A model generated the notes under the pieces. It saw only the letters and a program-made list of their open reading frames with translations. It had not been told where the DNA came from and searched no databases. From positions 1 through 38,307 of the forward strand of contig QHNT01000274.1 in assembly GCA_003218515.1 (NCBI GenBank): a DNA stretch of 38,307 nucleotides, given 5' to 3'. Within the stretch, counting starts at the first letter, position 1, and each line of letters opens with the position of its first letter. This document shows positions 4,073 through 36,443 of this stretch, one piece after another. Source of the stretch: Verrucomicrobiota bacterium (GTDB taxonomy: Bacteria > Verrucomicrobiota > Verrucomicrobiia > Limisphaerales > AV2). The translations under genes and the position numbers were made by a program.

Positions 4073-4151
4073 GGTAGGGCGCGTCACTCCGTGCGCGCCG
4101 CTCGGGGAACGGATTCGAGTCTGCGGCGCGCACGGAGTGACGCGCCCTACC
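4073..4151. repeat. Perfect 29-bp inverted repeat, ~21-nt loop
   Basis: ggtagggcgcgtcactccgtgcgcgccgc (4073-4101) and gcggcgcgcacggagtgacgcgccctacc (4123-4151) are exact reverse complements. Confidence 0.9.
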
Positions 4152-9559: not shown

Positions 9560-10342
9560 TCACAGTCGCCCATTATCAATCAACCTCGTCTTTCCCACAA
9601 ACACCGCCAGCGCGATATGCGCGCCGGGTTGCACATTCGCCGCCGGCTGAAGTGTTTGCGGGTCGAAGAATTCGATGTAATCCACGCGCGCGGCCGGACG
9701 AGTTTCAATCAGCCATTTCAATTCGGCCTTCAACCGGCTCGAAGGGATAGCCTCTTTCGAGGTCCGCACCGTTTGTCGGGCCAATTGGATTGCCTGCCAC
9801 AATGCCACGGCTTGTTCGCGCTCCTCCGCCGACAAATATTTGTTCCGTGAGCTCAGGGCGAGGCCATCGGCTTCGCGAACGGTCGGCGCGACGACAATTT
9901 TCACCGGAAAATGCAAGTCGCGCGCCATCCGTTTCACCACCGCCGCTTGCTGAAAATCCTTCGCGCCGAAAACGGCTACGTCCGGCAGAACGATGTTGAG
10001 CAGCTTCGCTACGACCGTCGTCACGCCGCGAAAATGCGTGGGCCGCGATTCGCCTTCCATCCCGCGCGACAGACCTTCCTCGACAACGTAAGTGCTGAAA
10101 CCTAGTGGCACGTGTGTCTCGCCCGTCTGTTCCGGGTGCAAACTCACGGGCGAGACGCCCGTGCCAGTATACATCTGCTTGTCCCCGGGCACGAACAACA
10201 CGTCCACGCCGGCGTCGCGGCAGAGTTTTTTGTCACGCGGCAGGTCGCGGGGATAATTGGCGAGGTCTTCGGTGGGCGCGAACTGTGTCGGGTTGACGTA
10301 AATGCTCACCACCATCGTCGACACCGAAGTCACGATTCGCAT
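9560..10342 (-). CDS. panC: Pantothenate synthetase with anomalous N-terminus and an in-frame insertion
   Basis: VVSIYVNPTQFAPTEDLANYPRDL, GESRPTHFRGVTTVVAKLLNIVLPDVAVFGAKDFQQAAVVKRMARDL, DGLALSSRNKYLSAEER, TRLIDNGRL. The expected PTMGxLHxGH segment is absent, so function is doubtful. Confidence 0.88.
   Translation of the reverse strand: MRIVTSVSTMVVSIYVNPTQFAPTEDLANYPRDLPRDKKLCRDAGVDVLFVPGDKQMYTGTGVSPVSLHPEQTGETHVPLGFSTYVVEEGLSRGMEGESRPTHFRGVTTVVAKLLNIVLPDVAVFGAKDFQQAAVVKRMARDLHFPVKIVVAPTVREADGLALSSRNKYLSAEEREQAVALWQAIQLARQTVRTSKEAIPSSRLKAELKWLIETRPAARVDYIEFFDPQTLQPAANVQPGAHIALAVFVGKTRLIDNGRL
10107..10165. repeat. Palindromic element inside panC coding sequence
   Basis: Arms ggcacgtgtgtctcgcccgt (10107-10126) and acgggcgagacgcccgtgcc (10146-10165) pair at 18/20. 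Encodes TGTGVSPVSLHPEQTGETHVP in the PanC frame. Confidence 0.88.
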
Positions 10343-10517: not shown

Positions 10518-10587
10518 GTTGTCAGCGTCGCGGTTCATGGCTCCGATACGCGTCCAACTTTTGCAGATCCTCCTATCCATGACCCGA

Positions 10588-10658
10588 GTGGGGCGAGACT
10601 CCGTCGAGCCCTAATTTCTATCCATTAGAGACCAGGGTTCGACGGAGTCTCACCCCAC
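10588..10658. repeat. 71-bp palindromic element, homologous to 23888-23958
   Basis: gtggggcgagactccgtcgagccct / agggttcgacggagtctcaccccac arms (23/25) around spacer aatttctatccattagagacc. Confidence 0.92.
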
Positions 10659-10697: not shown

Positions 10698-13600
10698 TCA
10701 CGGAAGAACCATCACGCGGTAAAAACGCTTCGCCGCAGCTTGGGTCGTGCTGTCGAGCTTCAGGCCCGTTGCGCTGGCGGCGACGACATCGCCGGGAAGG
10801 TCCGTCCAGTCCTGGTCTTCGATTCCGTTTTTGTATTGCACGCGATACGTTCGTCCGGGCACGGCGTTCCAGAGCACCACCAAACTATCGACGGGGTTTG
10901 AACTCGAAAGCGTAAACGCGCGGAAGATGGAAGCGTTTTCCGTCGGGTTTGTCCCCGCCCGAAACTCGGCCAAATCGCTGAGGCCGTCACCGTCAAAATC
11001 ACCGCTCCCGTCGCGAGACAAATCGCCGAAGTAAGCCATCTCCCAATCGTCCGCCATGCCGTCCCCATCCGCATCTCCGGCACTCAGTCGAAATACAAAG
11101 ATGTCCTTGGCCTCGTTGAAATCTCCAACCGTAAGGTCGGAAGAATAACTTTCAAACACGACCACATTGCCGTCCGCGCTCAGGACGGGATTGGCCGACA
11201 ACCGGTTGCTGCTGGCTGAGCCGTTGAAATTGACACTCAGCAACAGCGTCGTTCCCGCAACCAGATCGCGGAGGAAAACGTCCGTGAACCCATTGGTGTC
11301 ATTCGCCACTAGGTCGGAAGCCTGGCTCATGAAAACAACGTAACGACCATCGGGACTGATGAGTGGCGACGTGGATTTGCCGTTGCCGCTTTTGCTCCCG
11401 TCGAGGTTCACGCTGGCCAAGGCAACCGTGTTTGAAATCCGATCAAGAACGTAAATATCGGCAAGCCCGTTGGTGTCGTTGCCTGCCAGAACACTGGTGC
11501 TTTCGAATGCGATGAACCGGCCATCGGCGCTCACCGAAACCGCGGAAGCGCTGGTTACAATCAAGTCAACGGTGTGCAACGTCAGGTCGCAGAGGTAAAG
11601 GTTGGTTTGATTGAGAAACGCCGTGAAGTGCCCATCAGCGCTCAGCGCGGGCTGCCTGGCCCGATTCAATCCGCCGCCGTTGATCGAACCGCTGACGAGG
11701 ATATTGCTCCTGGTCGCGGCGTCCCAAAGAAACAGGTTTGTGCCGAACACGATGTTCGTGACCAGATCAGTCGCGCTGCTCAGGAAAACCACGCGCGCGC
11801 CGTCGGCGCTAATCAAAGGATTCCAGGACAGTTTGTTGCCTCCGGCATTGCCTGCTTGATTGAGGCTCACCGGAACATTCGTGTCTTGGGTCAAGTCGCG
11901 AAGGTAAACCTGGCCGAGCGAACTGTTCGGAATCGCCGGGTCGGGCCAGGAACTTTGGAAGGCCAAATAACGGCCATTCGCGCTCCAGACCGGCGTCGCG
12001 GGGGCGCCGGGCTTGTTAGTCGGACTGACGCTGGTGATGAACCAGTTCGTGTGCTCAACCCGATCGTAAACGCACAAAGTAAATTGATTGTTCAGGCCGC
12101 TCACCAATGGAGGGTTCAGCCCGTTGGTTGCCACCTCGGTTCCCACGACCGCTTCAAAGGCGACCCGTCTGCCGTTTCCGCTGATCGCCGGTAGGCGCGC
12201 TGGCGCGAGGCTGAAGAGCATCGCCGGCGTCGACCCGCCGTTCCCGCCGCGCGCATCCAACAAAAAATTCGCGTTGAGCCACTCATTCGATCCGGTGATC
12301 AAATCCCGCACAAAGACATCGCTCGTGCCGTTGGTGTCGCCGATGGTCAGGTTGGACGCAAAACTTTCAAACGCGATGAAACGACCATTGGCGCTCATTG
12401 AATTGGGGGTCAACTGGCTCATGGCGTTGCCGGTGAGCGAATCCAAAAGGGAATCACGGCGGGAAATCAATTCGACTAAATCATTCGCCAGTTCGCGCGC
12501 GAAGATGTTCACAACGCCGCGGGCACTGTTCGCCAACTGGTCGCCGGCCGCAGCTTGAAACGCGACGACCTGGCCATCCTCGCTCAACGCCGGGAACCGG
12601 GCGGAACCGACCCGCGTGCGCGTGCCGGTAGCTTGATCAAAAATATACGTGCCTGGCAGATAAGTAAAAGTCGTCGAACCGCTTTCGCTGGAGCCGCCCT
12701 TTGGCGCGGTGATCGTTTCGTCGCTGCCTTCGCTCTGGAAGACAATCCAGCGACCATCGCGGCTGATCGAAATCGGCAAGGCGCTGCGTTCATTGCTCGT
12801 CGTCGTCCAGTTGGTGAAGGTCACCGAATCGCCGTTGGTTTGACCGGAGTGTAAACTTGCCAAAATGGTTGTGCCCATTTGCAAATCGCGCACGAATACA
12901 TCCAACGCCGGAACGGCGCTGGTTGGAAGATTATCGTCACTCACCAGATCATTCGCCAGACTCTGAAACGCGACGTAACGGCCATCCGCGCTGATGACCG
13001 GCCCGAACGAACTGTTCGTGGGGTTAAACCCGCCCGTTTGATTCACGCTCACCAAAGCGGTCGTTCTCGCCACCAGATCGCGCACGTAAACGTTGCTTGT
13101 CACGAGCAGATTATTGACGACGAGATTGTTGGCCGGGCTTTGGAAGGCCACATATCGCCCATCGGCGCTCATGGCTGGGTTGCTGGAGTTGTTATTGGCG
13201 GAGATGCCATTCGTGGCGACACTGACCAGGATGTTGGTGCGGTTCAACAAATCCCGCACAAAGACGTCGCTCTTTTGGTTGTTGTCGTTAGCAATCAGAT
13301 TGCTGGCGGCGCTGGTGAAGGCCACCCAGCGCCCGTCGTCACTGATCCGCGCCGTGTCGGCAAAGACCGGTCCTCCGCCCAGCGCGCTGGCAGAGCCAAA
13401 ACGATCGCGCGTGACCAACGTCGTGACACCGGAAACCAGGTCGCGAACAAACAAGTCACTGGCGTTGTTGAGATCGTTCAAAGCGAGATTGCTCGCCCGG
13501 CTCTCGAACAGAACAAAGCGTCCGTCGGGAGTCATCACTGGCCAGGACGAAGCCTGATTGCCCGGCGACACGCCGTCGAGTGAAACGCTCACGAGTATCG

Positions 13601-14042
13601 TCGTGCCGGCGACGAGATTGCGCACGAAAATGTCCGAAGCATTGTTGGTGTCGTTCGCGACGAGATCGGTGGCCGAGCTTTCAAAGGCGACAAACCGCCC
13701 ATCCGCGCTGATGGAAGCGGCCAGGGAACCACCGTTCCCGCTGCGCGTGCCGTCGCGGTTCACGCTCACCAGAATCGTTTTGCCGAGGGTTCGGTCCCGC
13801 ACGAAGACGTCAAACGTGCCGTTGCTGTCGTTGCGAACCAGATTGTCCGCACGGCTAACGAAAACGACGAGGCGCCCGTCCGCGCTAACGCCGGCGTCGT
13901 GGCAATCGGCCGCCGCGCTTTCAACAGTGACGGCGGGAACGGGGACTGTTTGCGCCGCGCGGCCATTTTGGCCGGCGCCGAGCCACACCAGCGCGAGCAG
14001 AGCAACCGCCAACATTACTTGTGGTTTAAAGAAGCTTTTCAT
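10698..14042 (-). CDS. Large secreted PD40/TolB-like beta-propeller repeat protein with calcium-binding-type C-terminal repeat
   Basis: Signal peptide MKSFFKPQVMLAVALLALVWLGAGQNGRA. Many repeats of the type SADGRFVAFES.ASDLVANDTNNASDIFVRDLVAGTTILVSVS. C-terminal DADGDGMADDWEMAYFGDLSRDGSGDFDGDGLSDLAEFRAGTNP. Confidence 0.88.
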   Translation of the reverse strand: MKSFFKPQVMLAVALLALVWLGAGQNGRAAQTVPVPAVTVESAAADCHDAGVSADGRLVVFVSRADNLVRNDSNGTFDVFVRDRTLGKTILVSVNRDGTRSGNGGSLAASISADGRFVAFESSATDLVANDTNNASDIFVRNLVAGTTILVSVSLDGVSPGNQASSWPVMTPDGRFVLFESRASNLALNDLNNASDLFVRDLVSGVTTLVTRDRFGSASALGGGPVFADTARISDDGRWVAFTSAASNLIANDNNQKSDVFVRDLLNRTNILVSVATNGISANNNSSNPAMSADGRYVAFQSPANNLVVNNLLVTSNVYVRDLVARTTALVSVNQTGGFNPTNSSFGPVISADGRYVAFQSLANDLVSDDNLPTSAVPALDVFVRDLQMGTTILASLHSGQTNGDSVTFTNWTTTSNERSALPISISRDGRWIVFQSEGSDETITAPKGGSSESGSTTFTYLPGTYIFDQATGTRTRVGSARFPALSEDGQVVAFQAAAGDQLANSARGVVNIFARELANDLVELISRRDSLLDSLTGNAMSQLTPNSMSANGRFIAFESFASNLTIGDTNGTSDVFVRDLITGSNEWLNANFLLDARGGNGGSTPAMLFSLAPARLPAISGNGRRVAFEAVVGTEVATNGLNPPLVSGLNNQFTLCVYDRVEHTNWFITSVSPTNKPGAPATPVWSANGRYLAFQSSWPDPAIPNSSLGQVYLRDLTQDTNVPVSLNQAGNAGGNKLSWNPLISADGARVVFLSSATDLVTNIVFGTNLFLWDAATRSNILVSGSINGGGLNRARQPALSADGHFTAFLNQTNLYLCDLTLHTVDLIVTSASAVSVSADGRFIAFESTSVLAGNDTNGLADIYVLDRISNTVALASVNLDGSKSGNGKSTSPLISPDGRYVVFMSQASDLVANDTNGFTDVFLRDLVAGTTLLLSVNFNGSASSNRLSANPVLSADGNVVVFESYSSDLTVGDFNEAKDIFVFRLSAGDADGDGMADDWEMAYFGDLSRDGSGDFDGDGLSDLAEFRAGTNPTENASIFRAFTLSSSNPVDSLVVLWNAVPGRTYRVQYKNGIEDQDWTDLPGDVVAASATGLKLDSTTQAAAKRFYRVMVLP

Positions 14043-14077
14043 TGAAGTGATGCCGGCAGGAAGATTTGTCGTTAGAC

Positions 14078-14905
14078 TCAATGCAGATAGGTGGTAACGC
14101 TTTGAAGCCAGGCGACGTCAAGGTTGCGCGGCGAAGAAACATTCAGGCTCAGGCTGTTATTGTAGTGCGGGGGCGGAGTAGTGCGTGGATCAACCCACTG
14201 GCGGTACCGCACACTCCCGTCCGCGAAGCTCAGATTGGCGCCGAGATAGTGGTAGGCTGCGGGATAGTCAATGATCCGGGTCGCGGGTCCGGTACTGACC
14301 ATGTCAACATACAACATTCCGTCGTTGATGCTGTCGGGGTGTTCTTCTATGAACACGAAAGTTTGATCGGGCTGGCGAACCTGGGAACGGTTCGTCGCCA
14401 TTTGAAACGCGCCGGTCGGGCTGCCTATCCATCCGGAAGCGCCGTCTCCAATCCAGGCGTTCATTGAATAGCTTCGTACCCGCAACTGGCCCCGAACCGA
14501 GCTCACATCGTCAGGGCAGTGGTAAATCTCCACCGCCTTGTTGTACGGATACAACTTCGCCTGCGTGATTTTCGACAGGTTTGTGGCATCTGTGCCTGAA
14601 TAATCCAGGAACCCGGTCACCCAATTGTTCGTCACTGGGAACGGGTCCGACCGATTCGGCGCCAGTCTGCCGAGATTGTCGTCCGCATACATCAGCCAGG
14701 AAAGGGCCAGCCGGCGCAGATTGTCCGCGCACAAGGCGCGATGTGAATTGCCTTTGTTATGCGCGAAGGCGGAGATTTGCAGGAGAAGCAGCAAAGACAA
14801 AACCCCAAGAGCCATCAACAGATCAGAGAATGAAAAACCGGCCGCCGCTTTTTGCCAGCCACTGCCGCGCACGAACAATTCCTGTGATTCAGGAAGAATC
14901 CTCAT
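14078..14905 (-). CDS. Prepilin-like protein with H-X9-DG motif (tandem copy 1)
   Basis: GFSFSDLLMALGVLSLLLLLQISAFA N-terminal helix; RALCADNLRRLALSWLMYADDN; YHYLGANLSFADGSV (H-X9-DG). ATG at 14905 preferred. Confidence 0.82.
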   Translation of the reverse strand: MRILPESQELFVRGSGWQKAAAGFSFSDLLMALGVLSLLLLLQISAFAHNKGNSHRALCADNLRRLALSWLMYADDNLGRLAPNRSDPFPVTNNWVTGFLDYSGTDATNLSKITQAKLYPYNKAVEIYHCPDDVSSVRGQLRVRSYSMNAWIGDGASGWIGSPTGAFQMATNRSQVRQPDQTFVFIEEHPDSINDGMLYVDMVSTGPATRIIDYPAAYHYLGANLSFADGSVRYRQWVDPRTTPPPHYNNSLSLNVSSPRNLDVAWLQSVTTYLH

Positions 14906-15841: not shown

Positions 15842-15950
15842 CGCGGGGCTTGGAAGCCCCGCGAACTTGCAGCCGGGACGGCTGTGCTACGTAGCGCAGG
15901 CCTCCGGCCTGCGAGTTCCGGCGGCTTCCAGCCGTCCGGTTCGGTGGTGC
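15842..15950. repeat. String of consecutive hairpins sharing syntax with 10411-10517
   Basis: cgcggggctt-gg-aagccccgcg (perfect); agccg-gga-cggct; gcaggcc-tcc-ggcctgc within gtagcgcag...gcgagttc. Confidence 0.85.
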
Positions 15951-17700: not shown

Positions 17701-17830
17701 CTTCCTCTCCCTGCGAGGCACGAGCGGGGAGAGGGCTGGGGAGAGGGGCACCTTCCATTCGAATTGGCGCGGCTAACTGGAATCCCCTCTCCCTTACCCT
17801 CTCCCCACTCCTCCGTCGTGGTGAGAGGGA
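17701..17830. repeat. Degenerate CCCCTCTCCC-type palindromic repeat, intergenic
   Basis: cttcctctccctgcgaggcacgagcggggagagggctggggagaggggc ... cccctctcccttaccctctccccactcctccgtcgtggtgagaggg. Confidence 0.65.
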
Positions 17831-23873: not shown

Positions 23874-23887
23874 AACTGGTTCATGAG

Positions 23888-23958
23888 GTCGGGCGAGACT
23901 CCGTCGAGCCCTAACTTCTATCCATTGGAGGTCAGGGCTCGACGGAGTCTCGCCCCAC
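23888..23958. repeat. 71-bp palindromic element, homologous to 10588-10658
   Basis: gtcgggcgagactccgtcgagccct / agggctcgacggagtctcgccccac arms, spacer aacttctatccattggaggtc. By hand, 64/71 identical to the other copy. Confidence 0.92.
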
Positions 23959-23983
23959 CTGGTTCATGGACCATGAACCCTGG

Positions 23984-24059
23984 CGTAGCGGCGTCTCGGC
24001 AGAGCGCCGCTGGCTGGTTGTTCCCAGGAATTGCGGCGCTCTGCCGAGACGCCGCTACG
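23984..24059. repeat. Perfect 27-bp inverted repeat overlapping a gene end
   Basis: cgtagcggcgtctcggcagagcgccgc (23984-24010) and gcggcgctctgccgagacgccgctacg (24033-24059). Confidence 0.92.
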
Positions 24060-27000
24060 GCTGCCAGGGAGTAACCACGCGATAATATCGCGCGTTGGAG
24101 TTGGTGGCCGACGGCACAGCCACGTCCATCATCCCGGAGACCAGCGGCGGCGGAACATTTGTCAGTTTCAGCCAGCTCCCGGCCGCGAGCGAGTTCCGGT
24201 ATTGGACGGTGTAGGTCCGGTCGGCGACCGCATTGAATCGGATGGAAATCGCTTGCGGCGTGCCGCTGCCTGTTGTGGTTGACTCAATCTTCAGGCAGCT
24301 TTGCCCGTCGCGCGGGTCGGTGCCGGCCAGATACTCCTGAAGGTTGGTTTCACCGTCTCCATCGGGATCCGCCGCGTCCCCGCTGATCGCCGGGTTGGCC
24401 AGCTCGTCCGCCGTGAAGTATCGCGTCTTCCACGATTCCACATTTTCCCATTTCTCACGGCCCGGCGTGCCCGGGCCGTAACTGGCGCGCCAGTTGATCG
24501 GGTCGTTGCCGTAAGCCGCGGCGTCCAACCGTTCCAAGGACGGTCCGACTCCGTCCGCATTCGTCGGCCACGGCTCTTTGTCATTGTACCGCACCACGTC
24601 CGCGTCAACGTAGGGAACAAAGATCGCCCCTGAGTTCGTATCGACATCCGGTGTGTCGGGCCGCTGCAACGCCAGTGTCTCGCCATTGTTCTGCAACACG
24701 CCCGGATACAACGCGAAGACGGGCACATTCGTGGGGACGTTGTATCTCAAACGGAACACTCCCGGATCGCTGGCGACCAACAGCAGCAGACCATTCGCCG
24801 GTATCTCGACGTTCGGCGGGAAAGTGAACCCGGCGCCATTGAGTTTCCACGTGACGACGATCGGCCCAACCCGCGGCCCCGCGTTCGGGCCGCCCAACGA
24901 GTTGGAAACTTGCGCGGGATATTGCGCCTCCCCAGTGCTGATGACGTAGCGCCCGAAACTTGCGCCGTTTTGGGCCGCGCCGAAGTTGAAGCCATCGCTG
25001 TACCCGGTCAGATTTCCGCTCGCGTCGGCGGAAAAGAGATAAACTTCCTCGCCATGCGAATCGAGCCGGAAGCTGTTCGACGAAGTCGGGTTGGCGTTCC
25101 AGTCATTCTCGGTGAAGACAAGGTAGCCCTGGGCCTGGAGGATCGTCTTCGGCGGAATGCGGAATTTCTGCGGCGCGGCGCGCTGGTCAGTCAGATACCA
25201 GTTGCCGATATCGACGGCGACCGATGTGGGATTGAAGAGTTCGATCGAGTCCTGTTGCGGCGGGTCGGTGTGGGTGAGCGCCTCGTTGAGGAGGACCCGC
25301 GGGATGTTGGACGGCGGATCGTCGGCGCCCGGCGAACCACCTGCCAACGCGCTCGCGCGCCAGTTCGTTCGCTTGTCCCATGCGCTCGGCGGCGCCTGTT
25401 CATCCGCCACGACCAGCGAGAAGCCAAATCCGTCGGTGGCCGGACACCAGGTGTCGTTGTAATCAAAATCCAAAATCGGCTCGCCGCTCGCCCCTTCCAG
25501 CGTCAGTCGTTCGCCTGCATTATCGAGGTTGCCGGAATATTCTCCGGCGATGTTCGGCACTGCGCTATAGCGCGCTGTGAACGCCGCCAGATTTTTGACG
25601 ATGACGACAAGTTGCCCCGAATCGAGACTGGTCACGGCGCTGTTGGCAAAGGAGAATTCGACGCCGTTGGTGAAATGAATACCGCTGAGGTCCAGCGTCG
25701 TTGTTCCGACATTCTTCAATTCAATAAACTCGAAATCCTCCGCCGTGTAAGGACTGCCCGCCGGCGGGCTCTGCGGGTGATACATGATTTCAGTGATGAC
25801 CAAGGGCGGCGTGCTGACCACGAACGTGCTCACCGCGGGCGGACTCCAGGCGGCGCCATTTCGCGCACGAGCAAAAACTCGGGCATTAGCCGACAGGGTG
25901 ATGGACGAACTGTAAATCGAAGCTCGCGGACTGATCCCCCCGCCGGGCAATCGCGGGTCGGTGCCGTCCAGGGTGCAATAAATGACGCCTTTGGGCGCGG
26001 TCATACTCAACGCGAAACCGGCTGTGATGGGGCCGCCCGCGCCGCTGAACACCGGAGCGGGAGTGTAATTGGTGTCAATCCACGCGAGCCGACTGGCGAT
26101 CCACTGCTTCATCCAATTGATTTCGTCCTGATACGTCTTGCCGATATACCAGTTGGGCCAGACATAGGTGCCCAGGATACGCCACTTCTGATAGTTTCGG
26201 ACCTGCGCCTCGTTCAAATACGACGCCAGTTGGTCCACACGCGCGAGGAGGTTTGACGTGGCAAAGACATCCTTGCGCAGTTCGCCCCAACGATCGATGT
26301 ATCGCTGATTGAAGTCCGGGTCCTGGAACAGACGACGGAACCAGGGATAATCTTGATCCGCTGTCTGCGTCCAATACCAGCCGCTGGTCAGCCAGCCGTT
26401 CAGGTAATTCGCGTTGCCAAAGGTCAGGTTCCAGTCCCAGATCGGATCCATTTTGAGTTTGCCGAGCCGATCCTTGTGCAGGTAATTGCTCAAGCGGTAG
26501 CCATCGATGTTCTTCGACATTTCGACGATCCATTGCTGGTCGATGAATGAATCGATATCGATGAATTGGGCGTAACCGTTGAGCGGGTCGCGGAAGTCCG
26601 CGCCATACAGCGCCGTCTCGAACTGGCTGAACCAAGCGGAAAGCCACACCGCCTGCGCCGGAGTGATGTCCTGTTCCTTGGGATCCACGTAGGCCAGAAC
26701 TCCCGCGTGCGGTGTCGAAAACCCGGAATCACCAGGGTCAAGTCGGTCCTTTTTGATGATATACCCGCCCGTGACTTCCGGTTCGTTATTGTCCGCGGGC
26801 GACAGGGCCGCGACGTCCACGCGGTCCTTGCCGCGTTTGATTTTTTCCTCGAACACATACACGCCCGCATAATCGCCCATCGTCAGTTTGCCCCGCGAAC
26901 TGTCCACGAACACTTCCACGAATTTGGTACGCACCGAGTAGTGACCCATTTTGCCGTGGAGTTCATAACCCAAAAAGTCGCGCATCAGCGTTTTGTCGGT

Positions 27001-33072: not shown

Positions 33073-34566
33073 TTACTGACCGATCTCGATCCAGTCCACG
33101 TCATAGGGTTCAAGTTTCGTCCGGACAGGTTGAGCTTCCAACTCTCCAGCGCTTCCCTGGCGAATCACCGCCAGGTTGTTTACCGGCGCGCTCGCATCCA
33201 GCTTCATGAAGCGGAACTGGCCGCGCTGGCCTTTGGGAAAACGGACGACCGCTTCGACCACTTCGCCCGGGCCGGGAGACGGAAAATTCCAAAACACAAC
33301 GTGATTCCAGCTTCCGTTTCGCGCGGCAAAGGCTTTCACGTCCCCGCTGGTCCCGCTCACGGCGAGCTTTTGTCCTTTGATCAAACTGAGCAAGCGAAAG
33401 GCGTAGTAGGCCGGTCGCACGCGGCCCTGGTTGTCCCAGAGTCCGTCATACTGCGGCATGACGTTCCACCAGTGCGCCATGAAGTCTGTCCCCTGCGCGG
33501 ACATCCACGGGGAAAATCTCGAAGGGTCCACGAAAAAGTCCCGAATATGGTAATAGGCCGCGCGCGCGAGGCCCTCTTCGTAAAAGTCGTGCGTCGTCTC
33601 AAGCACGAACGCGGGTTGAAAGGCGGGCGTCAGCACGGGGTTCCCGAGCGACATGTTCCATTCGTCCAGAATAGTTTCCGTTCCGGCCAGTCGCAGGTGC
33701 TTGGCTAGTTTGGCTTTCACCTCTTTGATGCTCTGGCGGAGTTGACCGGGATTGTTGCTGTAAAGATGCCAGGAGAAAAAGTGGAGCGGCGCGCCGCCTT
33801 TGGCGCAGTGTTCAATCAGCGCATCGCCCAACCGACTCCGGTAACCCGCCAGGGCCGGTCCGCCCACTCTCGCTTTCGGATCAGCCCGTAGAATCGCGTT
33901 CGCCGTGTGCGTGTAATAAGCGACGTAATCTTCGGGCTTGAAGCGATAAGGGCAGCCGCCGTCCTCGCCGATGTCCGGCTCATTTCCCACCTCCCAATAC
34001 TCAACGCCGTATCGCCGGCGCTGATTGCAGTGTTTGACCAGCTCAAAGACCAGTTTCTCCCAGTCCTTGTAATGGGTGGGATGCACGACGTCCTGTTCGA
34101 TCTTCGGAAAGAGCACGCGCGGCTTGAAACACAGACACAGGAGCGGCCTCGCGCCCGTGGCGAGGATGGCTTCGATGCTGTGGTCCAGCGTGTCCCAATG
34201 GTAACGTCCGGGCTTTGGGTAAAGATCGAAGTATTCCTGGACAAAAAGACGGATCGTTCGCGGCTGAAGCTGGGCAAGCTGGTCAAGGTGCGCAGCGATC
34301 ATTGGCTTCTCTGAAAGCCCACCCTGGCCCAAGGCATAGCGCGTCAAATCGATCTCCCCGATGGTCTGCGTGGTATCGACGACCAACTCAACCGTGGCGG
34401 CGAGCGCAGACCGGTCGAGCAGCGACATTCCAAGCAGCAGAATCGCGCAGCGGGACCATGAACCCAATCGTCCTCGTGCTCGTCCTCGTGCTCGTCCTCG
34501 AAACCAAGAGGAGACGAATCGAGGACGAGGACGAGAACGACGAGGAGGACGAAGGGGCAGGTTCAT
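33073..34566 (-). CDS. Secreted GH39-like glycoside hydrolase (xylosidase/arabinosidase type)
   Basis: YGVEYWEVGNEPDIGEDGG (putative acid/base), TETILDEWNMS (putative nucleophile), FFSWHLYSNNPGQL, AHWWNVMPQYDGLWDNQGRVRPAYYAFRLLS. Best start is ATG at 34566 preceded by aaaggaggctctcc; other candidates TTG 34467 and ATG 34428; the ORF extends to 34848. Confidence 0.8.
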   Translation of the reverse strand: MNLPLRPPRRSRPRPRFVSSWFRGRARGRARGRLGSWSRCAILLLGMSLLDRSALAATVELVVDTTQTIGEIDLTRYALGQGGLSEKPMIAAHLDQLAQLQPRTIRLFVQEYFDLYPKPGRYHWDTLDHSIEAILATGARPLLCLCFKPRVLFPKIEQDVVHPTHYKDWEKLVFELVKHCNQRRRYGVEYWEVGNEPDIGEDGGCPYRFKPEDYVAYYTHTANAILRADPKARVGGPALAGYRSRLGDALIEHCAKGGAPLHFFSWHLYSNNPGQLRQSIKEVKAKLAKHLRLAGTETILDEWNMSLGNPVLTPAFQPAFVLETTHDFYEEGLARAAYYHIRDFFVDPSRFSPWMSAQGTDFMAHWWNVMPQYDGLWDNQGRVRPAYYAFRLLSLIKGQKLAVSGTSGDVKAFAARNGSWNHVVFWNFPSPGPGEVVEAVVRFPKGQRGQFRFMKLDASAPVNNLAVIRQGSAGELEAQPVRTKLEPYDVDWIEIGQ

Positions 34567-34799
34567 GGAGAGCCTCCTTTCGCTTTTGCGCGCGCATTGG
34601 GACCATGAACCGCTGCGCCTCACAGAGGCGCGGTCCGGACGGCGGGTCTGCGACCCGCAGCCTGCTCGGTTCACGGAAAGCCTACTTTCGTTTTTTCGCA
34701 TGTAGCGGGACCATGAACCAAATTGGCACCCCTCTCCCTGCCCTCTCCCCGCAAGGCGGGGAGAGGGTGGCCGAAGGCCGGGAGAGGGGCGGTTCATGG
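34456..34799. repeat. Cluster of three palindromic modules bracketed by CCATGAACC / GGTTCA(T/C)GG
   Basis: Cores at ~34465-34559 (cgtcctcgtgctcgtcctcg.../cgaggacgaggacgag...), ~34612-34667, and ~34720-34790 (cccctctccctgccctctccccgcaaggcggggagagggtggccgaaggccgggagagggg). Linkers 34560-34611 and 34668-34719 are homologous (42/52 by hand). Confidence 0.88.
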
Positions 34800-34961
34800 G
34801 AATCGTGGGAAGAAATCGGGCAGATTTCATAAACGGTTTGCCGGTCACCTTAGAAACTCCTGGTTGGAAGACAAGTTCAAGCAGCCGCCTGCGGGGTTGA
34901 ATCCCCTCCGCATGGAGGCTTGTCGTAAGGAGGGCCGTTCGTTAAGACTCTTGCTCAAGGC

Positions 34962-36443
34962 ATGACGCATTTCTCCTGGCTGGATGGCAGCATTGTGGGG
35001 CTTTACCTCCTCGCCACCATGATTGCCGGGGTCATGGTGCGGAAATACGTCGCCAGGGTGGAACACTTCCTGGTGGCGGGGCGCGAGATGAACGTTTACC
35101 TCGGCATCGCGTCGCTGGCGGCCACCGAGTTTGGCATCGTGACCTGTATGTACACGGCGCAAAACGGTTACGAGAAGGGATTCGCCGGCGCCATTCCCGG
35201 CATCTGCCAGGCCATCGCCATGGGATTCATCGGCCTGACCGGCTTCTGCATCAAACCGCTGCGCGATTCCGGCGCGATGACCATCCCGGAAATGTTCGAG
35301 AAACGCTTCGGTCCGCGCATTCGCTGGGCGGCGGGCGTGGTCATTGTCCTGGGTGGCTTGCTGAACATGGGCGTGTTCCTGCGGACGGGCGGCGAGTTTC
35401 TCGTGCTCGTGTGCGGGTTCGACGTGAAGTATCTGGAAATCGCCATGACCGCGCTGCTCGTCGGCGTGGCGGTTTACACCATCCTCGGCGGGATGCTCTC
35501 CGTGCTCGTCACCGACTTCCTACAATTCGTCGTCATGAGCGCCGGCCTGATTGTCGTCACTGCGCTCATCCTGGCAAATATCGGCTGGGGCAAACTGGTG
35601 AGCACTGTGCAAATTCATTACGGCGCCGGCGGTTTCAATCCGTTGCTGAACCCGAGCATGGGCTGGCCGTACGTGCTTTTCAATCTCCTGCTCAACACGG
35701 CCGCCACACTCACCTGGCAGGCGACCATCGCCCGTGTGCTGGCCGCCAAGGACAGCGCGACCGGACGAAAGATATACACGCGCACCGCGTTCTTCTTCGT
35801 CTGTCGCTTTCTCATCCCCGGCATCTGGGGCATCGCCGCGCTGGCGGCGCTCGGACCGGCCATGCCCGGCGACAACACGCTGCACGCCATGCCCAGGTTT
35901 CTCAGCACGTTCGTTCCTGTCGGTGTCATGGGGGTTCTGGTGGCGGCGATGCTCGCGGCGGACATGAGCACCGATTCGTCCTATATGCTCACCTGGGGCA
36001 GCGTCATGTACAACGACGTGCTCGCGCCATTCCGCAAGTCAGCCTGGTCCGAGCGCCAGGGGCTGCTGGTCAACCGGGCGATCATTGCGTTGATTGGCGT
36101 GTTCCTGCTGTTTTACGGGCTCTGGTATCCGCTCAAGGGCGACCTCTGGACCTACCTGGGTGTCACCGGGACAATTTACCTGTCGAGCATGACCATGCTG
36201 CTGATCGCCTGCTGCTATTGGCGCCGCGCGAACAACTGGGGTGCAGCCGCGGCCATCGTTTGCGGCGCGGTCGTGCCGATTTGTTATCTGATTATCGAAC
36301 AGGTCCCGAAAACGAAGCCTGTCGCGGCAAAAATCGGACCGTACTATTCAGGCATCGCGACTTATCTGTTGGTCGGTGCGGCAATGGTGGTCGGTTCACT
36401 GCTGAAACCGCGGGACGAACAGCGCGCTCAACCCGGCGTCTGA
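34962..36443 (+). CDS. Sodium:solute symporter (SSS family)
   Basis: Multiple TM helices; VARVEHFLVAGREMNVYLGIASLAATEFGIVTCMYTAQNGYEKGFAGAIPGICQAIAMGFIGLTGF; MTIPEMFEKRFGPRIRW. Confidence 0.93.
   Translation: MTHFSWLDGSIVGLYLLATMIAGVMVRKYVARVEHFLVAGREMNVYLGIASLAATEFGIVTCMYTAQNGYEKGFAGAIPGICQAIAMGFIGLTGFCIKPLRDSGAMTIPEMFEKRFGPRIRWAAGVVIVLGGLLNMGVFLRTGGEFLVLVCGFDVKYLEIAMTALLVGVAVYTILGGMLSVLVTDFLQFVVMSAGLIVVTALILANIGWGKLVSTVQIHYGAGGFNPLLNPSMGWPYVLFNLLLNTAATLTWQATIARVLAAKDSATGRKIYTRTAFFFVCRFLIPGIWGIAALAALGPAMPGDNTLHAMPRFLSTFVPVGVMGVLVAAMLAADMSTDSSYMLTWGSVMYNDVLAPFRKSAWSERQGLLVNRAIIALIGVFLLFYGLWYPLKGDLWTYLGVTGTIYLSSMTMLLIACCYWRRANNWGAAAAIVCGAVVPICYLIIEQVPKTKPVAAKIGPYYSGIATYLLVGAAMVVGSLLKPRDEQRAQPGV

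Follow-up and report, generated by a model that had tools for sequence, protein, structure and literature searches.

The three palindromic modules at the 5' end of a GH39-family gene are very likely each one unit of a large mobile-element family whose members are tiny and non-coding, and this is the best explanation of the data as a whole. The window (the whole 38,307-nucleotide stretch analysed) is contig C284 of a ~5.9-Mb (5.89-Mb) MAG, G000. We observed a genome-wide family with definable unit boundaries, insertion polymorphism between relatives, in-frame insertions within genes and a covarying hairpin, although the genomes compared are mostly MAGs.

Within the window, CCATGAACC is found at 34456, 34603 and 34711 and GGTTCA(T/C)GG at 34560, 34668 and 34791, bracketing palindromic cores of 95, 56 and 71 bp, all three different. 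This agrees with an earlier note made from the letters alone, as do the two diverged 52-bp linker copies (81% identity), the minus-strand glycosidase frame that stays open across all three modules and, through its PF01229 match, the GH39 identity. Overall, CCATGAACC occurs eight times in the window against 0.31 expected, a count that 0/100 shuffles reach. The array is longer than the three modules the note described, since its gene-proximal end runs on into half a linker (34441-34455). Intact relatives of this unit 3 linker read like TCCCGATGCGCGATTCTGAATTCGCGGAGGCT, whereas here the linker ends at its loop, probably through a deletion between CTG repeats, judging from the sequence; such a deletion may also have restored the GH39 frame. 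The 56-bp core c1 with its A1 linker, which forms unit 2, is the most frequent fixed pair genome-wide (Table 1).

Table 1 Positions of the array, its units and the host gene in the window.
Feature	Position	Strand	Basis or remark
Whole inserted array, three stacked units	34441..34799	-	Comparison with G004 orthologue L052, 95% identity
Unit 1	34677..34799	-	Core and linker families recur elsewhere in genome
Unit 1 parts: CCATGAACC; CCCTCTCCC-type core; GGTTCATGG; A-type linker hairpin	34799-34791; 34790-34720; 34719-34711; 34710-34677	-	
Unit 2	34569..34676	-	Core c1 + A1 linker
Unit 2 parts: CCGTGAACC; 56-bp core c1; GGTTCATGG; A1 linker	34676-34668; 34667-34612; 34611-34603; 34602-34569	-	
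Unit 3	34441..34568	-	Last unit, linker incomplete
Unit 3 parts: CCATGAACC; CTCGTCCTC-type core; GGTTCATGG; 15-nt linker stub	34568-34560; 34559-34465; 34464-34456; 34455-34441	-	
52-bp bracketed linker	34560..34611	-	Outer 9-bp stem GGTTCATGG/CCATGAACC and inner stem-loop
Second bracketed linker, diverged	34668..34719	-	81% identity to first
GH39-family gene, array inside signal peptide	33073..34830	-	PF01229, E = 7.8e-19
In-frame ATG within array, possible alternative start	34564..34566	-	SD-like AAAGGAGG 6 nt upstream

The orthologous GH39 gene in the relative G004 lacks the array and allows the insertion to be delimited. Its signal peptide is MRAARFLPTILSMLLLGMSLLDRSALAA; in the window, the array follows FLPTI, and its 359 bp take the place of 8 bp (TTTCCATG) of the empty site, a net gain of 351 bp or 117 codons, in frame. 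The earlier proposal of repeated insertion near the 5' end of the gene, with in-frame lengthening of the N-terminus, is thus supported by an orthologue without modules, but insertion at the start codon is not: the native start is the minus-strand ATG at 34830, upstream of the array and conserved in G004, and the modules lie inside signal-peptide codons. The SD-like sequence and ATGAACC start singled out by the note are indeed present (AAAGGAGG-CTCTCC-ATG, with the in-frame ATG at 34566), but the motif belongs to the linker family and the native start is intact. As read from the sequence, this ATG could possibly serve as an alternative start, which would give a long n-region before CAILLLGMSLL. 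The note also raised the point that an orthologue without modules might lack CCATGAACC; this is true in part, the empty site holding the partial match CTTTCCATG. The gene divergent from the GH39 gene encodes a sodium:solute symporter, in which about 95 bp (window ~35037-35131) are absent from G004 (L052 near 3110).

The components of the array recur throughout the genome. In the ~5.9-Mb MAG, CCATGAACC is found 540 times and the reversed pattern once; GGTTCATGG-N20-50-CCATGAACC identifies 96 exactly bracketed linkers (control 0) and CCATGAACC-N40-70-GGTTCATGG identifies 52 sites. On contigs chosen irrespective of arrays, linkers occur at ~47 per Mb. They fall into several families, including A (TCCCAATGCGTGCGCAAAAGCGAAAGGAGGCT), B (CCTCGATTCACGTCCGAATTTTGGAGGTGTCCCCT) and C (TCCCGATGCGTGATTCTGAAATCGTGGAGGCT), and the cores sort into about twenty clusters. 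The window linker is therefore not a local duplication but forms the 3' hairpin of ~120-bp non-autonomous mobile units, a family present throughout the genome.

Further traces of such sequences were seen elsewhere in the window. At 10532-10658, a degenerate bracketed linker followed by a GGGGCGAGACTCCGTCGAGCCC palindrome forms a remnant unit between the ORFs at 9560-10342 and 10698-14081. At 23878-24065, the brackets of two palindromic cores, one of GGGCGAGACTCC type and one of GTAGCGGCGTCTCGGCAGAGCGCC type, stand back-to-back as GGTTCATGG-A-CCATGAACC, a linker-less junction. Palindromes without brackets, several of them core-like, are present at 4073-4151, 15851-15930, 17704-17828 and 10103-10169, and may be either cores moving alone or independent repeats.

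Each unit has the order CCATGAACC, palindromic core, GGTTCATGG, linker hairpin and CT, and stands in front of a further NYCCATGAACC-like site. Cores range from about 40 to 110 bp, and linkers measure 33-38 nt, with CT and two variable bases at the end. In 1.06 Mb of G000, we counted 122 complete units (median core 67 bp, median unit 120 bp), none of which has a protein-coding core. Knowing a core allows its following linker to be predicted (mutual information 1.53, null 0.79 +/- 0.07, 0/3000 shuffles), whereas a linker gives no information on the next core (0.788 versus 0.792, 1497/3000), and therefore the moving piece consists of a core and its following linker. Arrays contain 1 to 8 units arranged head-to-tail, with adjacent units in the same orientation in 62 cases against 2.

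Covariation was assessed across 28 linkers that are less than 80% alike and come from several families of the order. Since the brackets were used for selection, the constancy of the outer 9-bp stem is no evidence, but the inner stem was not a criterion, and it covaries strongly across genera. The score for the whole linker structure is 0.266, against 0.088 +/- 0.013 for shuffled alignments (0/500) and 0.031-0.123 when the structure is slid; one stem pair takes four Watson-Crick forms and is paired in 28/28 sequences. This covariation points to recognition of the linker as a single strand.

Comparison of G000 with G004 indicates that the units are mobile. The flanks of 35 arrays were used to locate their counterparts in G004, and of roughly 20 orthologous array sites examined, most differ, being either empty or occupied by other units. 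L062 is a clean empty site: the host reads CCCTCT|CCATGAGCC, and the host variant base (CCATGAgCC) is kept in the right-hand copy. At L061, a single unit is inserted after ..CCT and before CTCCATGAARC, and at L254 the clean empty site is GGTCCGC-AGTCC, with a target that matches CCATGAACC partially. A CT two bases before CCATGAACC (NYCCATGAACC) is present in 79/89 and 98/122 junctions, which fits a cut before, after or across the intervening dinucleotide. At most orthologous sites this dinucleotide varies from strain to strain. Its association is clear for the upstream linker (0/3000) but weak for the downstream core (122/3000), which is not what one would expect from a simple cut after CT that places the dinucleotide in the left end of the element. 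One linker subtype, TCCCAATGCATGCGAAAAACGAAAGGGGGCT (at L033 and other G000 loci), is unlike the others in that TT always comes next (11/11) despite differing cores. Array orientation shows no significant bias relative to GC skew (p = 0.30), and lagging-strand insertion is therefore unsupported.

Four genes containing an array have an uninterrupted relative, and in all four the insertion is in frame and open. Besides the GH39 gene, these are a DnaE-type polymerase gene (+222 bp, IPLHEP-[74 codons]-SRRECLEWETDLFG), a DUF2752-like gene (+246 bp, 82 codons; named from its CPFCGSTRC motif, without a Pfam match) and a LuxE-like gene, whose site is empty in G001 and G002. About four of the 59 arrays examined are clearly intragenic, and most are probably intergenic. 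The in-frame cases alone are no evidence of adaptation, since genes that survive must be in frame. Stronger evidence is provided by the lengths and sequences of the units themselves. In 27/43 unit families, the modal length of the unit is divisible by three (binomial p = 7e-5, an optimistic value because these families, formed by single linkage, share linkers and are not fully independent), and units contain 3.05 open frames on average, against 2.50 +/- 0.16 in dinucleotide shuffles. The length bias may be due to selection or filtering for frame, and suggests that coding sequence is a real habitat of the units. Both unit mobility and in-frame insertion are well supported. In these genomes, gene prediction will read through such arrays and produce extended or fused proteins.

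Bracketed linkers were detected in 12/58 genomes of the order, with high counts in G000, G003, G004 and G055, while G002, which belongs to the same genus as G000 and is 95% complete, contains none. In G055, G043 and G007, from other families, the same unit architecture is seen with diverged sequence. A scan of 85,488 species genomes returned at least 100 stretches with the pattern. Among the matches listed, nearly all are from Verrucomicrobiota MAGs (soil, groundwater and lakes), on dozens of named contigs; the few Novosphingobium, Acidimicrobiia and Hydrogenedentota cases listed look like chance or unrelated repeats. A search of viral contigs with the linker pattern in its reversed-orientation form gave no match. 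Many units of a single family, with an 80-bp core and a 36-nt linker, are present in MAGs titled Akkermansia muciniphila (L145, L157, L158, L162 and others; CAMAWP/CAMAUY contigs), whose species label looks doubtful. In G055, a 141-bp unit forms a 6.7-copy tandem array with 96% identity (L281, G055:C258, 4975-5919), ~3.3 kb from an integron-integrase gene.

We infer a role of the 9-mer as a guide in pairing. In the proposed mechanism, GGTTCATGG can close the core hairpin by pairing with the left CCATGAACC of its own unit or, alternatively, close the linker hairpin by pairing with a CCATGAACC-like target sequence at the right. Insertion takes place beside a CT-NN-CCATGAACC-like site; such a site is regenerated by each unit, so that later units stack head-to-tail. 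Intragenic arrays that persist preserve the reading frame, and unit lengths and sequences are biased in the same direction. In the GH39 gene, three units entered the signal peptide and, together with a probable small end deletion, produced the in-frame extension. It is about an even call whether the units are moved in trans by a hairpin-recognising single-strand enzyme (Y1/HUH-like); this is the leading guess because CT dinucleotides are the cleavage sites of TnpA-REP and short guides lie 5' of the hairpins in IS200/IS605 (PMC8266576). Taken together, these steps would amount to a new single-strand, cassette-like transposition system of Verrucomicrobiota, in which one 9-nt guide (GGTTCATGG) pairs alternately with left end and target and moves site-specific, stacking, frame-adapted non-coding units. 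We advance this full scheme only tentatively.

Candidate enzymes were sought in the same genomes. Y1 transposases (PF01797) are present in 50/58 genomes of the order, including G002, which lacks bracketed linkers, and none of roughly 50 Y1-transposase loci scanned is flanked by units. One of these loci lies near a unit, but its transposase belongs to an unrelated IS with its own ends. At L123 (G055:C9, 950-1975), a 320-aa Y1 transposase with GGGTCAGTCCCACATATTGA inverted ends is apparently inserted in the core of a unit. All-against-all clustering of the ORFs near arrays revealed no recurrent recombinase, and neither 1.06 Mb of G000 nor the named loci yielded an autonomous element with these ends. 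Upstream of AGCAGGTCCG-type linkers, a stretch that looks like coding sequence proved not to be an autonomous element.

The main alternative to a Y1/HUH enzyme is a conservative double-strand recombinase that would move the same units with a two-base stagger, the dinucleotide being the exchanged coupling sequence. Two properties of the dinucleotide would suit such an exchange: at most orthologous sites it is not the same in different strains, and its link to either neighbour is loose. However, it leaves the strongly covarying hairpin without a reason and has no candidate gene, and we regard it as rather unlikely.

It is improbable that the units are miniature, gene-less cassettes with an attC-like hairpin moved by an integron integrase, even though the layout is integron-like in three respects: each body is followed by a hairpin site of its own, arrays run head-to-tail and the order of cassettes is random. 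An integrase (TIGR02249) scores over the curated cut-off in 20/58 genomes, including G001, G004, G007 and G055, and the 6.7-copy array is situated ~3.3 kb from the G055 integrase. Nevertheless, integrase presence does not track linkers across the 58 genomes, several of them incomplete MAGs: G003 has 85 linkers and no match over the cut-off (it is a 75% complete MAG), and 16 integrase-bearing genomes contain no bracketed linker. Moreover, the bracket CATGAAC/GTTCATG does not fit the attC R boxes RYYYAAC/GTTRRRY, the arrays are dispersed without a single platform, and crossover at the integrase point G^TT is excluded because the host variant base at L062 stays on the right copy.

A functional role as structural RNA or terminator modules, for example at mRNA ends, with the in-frame cases being accidental, is very improbable. 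The covarying hairpin and the apparently intergenic position of most arrays (about four of 59 being clearly intragenic) would suit it, but polymorphic occupancy, stacking and lengths divisible by three are features of mobile DNA, and an Rfam search of the window matched a tRNA only, with no match to the units.

The view of the earlier note that the linkers are copied ribosome-binding-site segments, arising by slippage or unequal crossing-over of the ribosome-binding-site and start region with palindromes inserted later, is hardly credible: one linker does combine SD-like AAAGGAGG with ATGAACC, the other has a diverged form and one ATG is in frame, but the search for the linker elsewhere showed that it is not confined to this site and belongs to a structured, covarying family spanning the genome and many Verrucomicrobiota genomes, the gene starts at another position and no linker is present at the empty site, which refutes this origin. 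The purine-rich GGnGG is part of the linker hairpin flank, and in the 37-nt (B-type) linkers it is too distant from the ATG to be fit as a ribosome-binding site.

A literature search found no earlier description of these units, which share features with several known systems. Like REP/BIME elements and REPINs mobilised by TnpA-REP (RAYT), they are palindromic and present in hundreds of copies, with a hairpin that would be recognised on one strand, and the CT at the unit boundary recalls the CT dinucleotides cleaved by TnpA-REP (PMC8266576). In contrast to REP elements, the linker hairpin has no GTAG tag (the A1 alignment shows no conserved GTAG) and apparently no CGTC tag, although some cores carry GTAG palindromes; unit arrays are directional whereas REP and iREP alternate; and no Y1 gene at the approximately 50 loci is flanked by units. 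Integron cassette arrays (attC, CALIN) similarly consist of a body with its own 3' hairpin site, head-to-tail and in unconserved order, but the units are non-coding and dispersed, have the wrong site consensus and show a crossover position inconsistent with IntI. The units thus belong neither to the REP elements nor to the integron cassettes. Compared with classical DDE MITEs, they have 9-bp inverted brackets, and the flanking direct CCATGAACC is the target itself, with no independent duplication seen.

IS200/IS605 miniature elements resemble the units in having a hairpin near each end, a short adjoining target without duplication and, as we infer for the units, guide pairing. However, IS200/IS605 uses separate 4-nt guides, whereas here one 9-nt bracket is common to both ends and the target, and no TnpA was found with unit ends. 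If guide pairing is true, the units would represent a hairpin-guided insertion chemistry with a target code both longer and simpler than that of IS200/IS605. The natural pairs of empty and filled alleles make insertion boundaries readable.

Rickettsia palindromic elements (RPE) are ~150-bp palindromic repeats that comprise several families and occupy intergenic sites as well as in-frame positions within unrelated genes (PMC10969869), and CGTC-type repeats, including RPE-4 and RPE-6, have no known dedicated transposase (PMC3733652). The units resemble RPE in being inserted in frame within protein-coding genes, here in four orthologue-checked genes. Compared with RPE as described, the Verrucomicrobiota units are composite, with two hairpins and an invariant 9-mer as both boundary and target; they stack head-to-tail in directional arrays; and they have no shared conserved peptide, several frames being open. 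Thus, in-frame palindromic mobile DNA, best known from Rickettsia, is now found to be dense in an environmental phylum, where the units work like RPE but with a new two-hairpin, bracket-targeted, stacking architecture.
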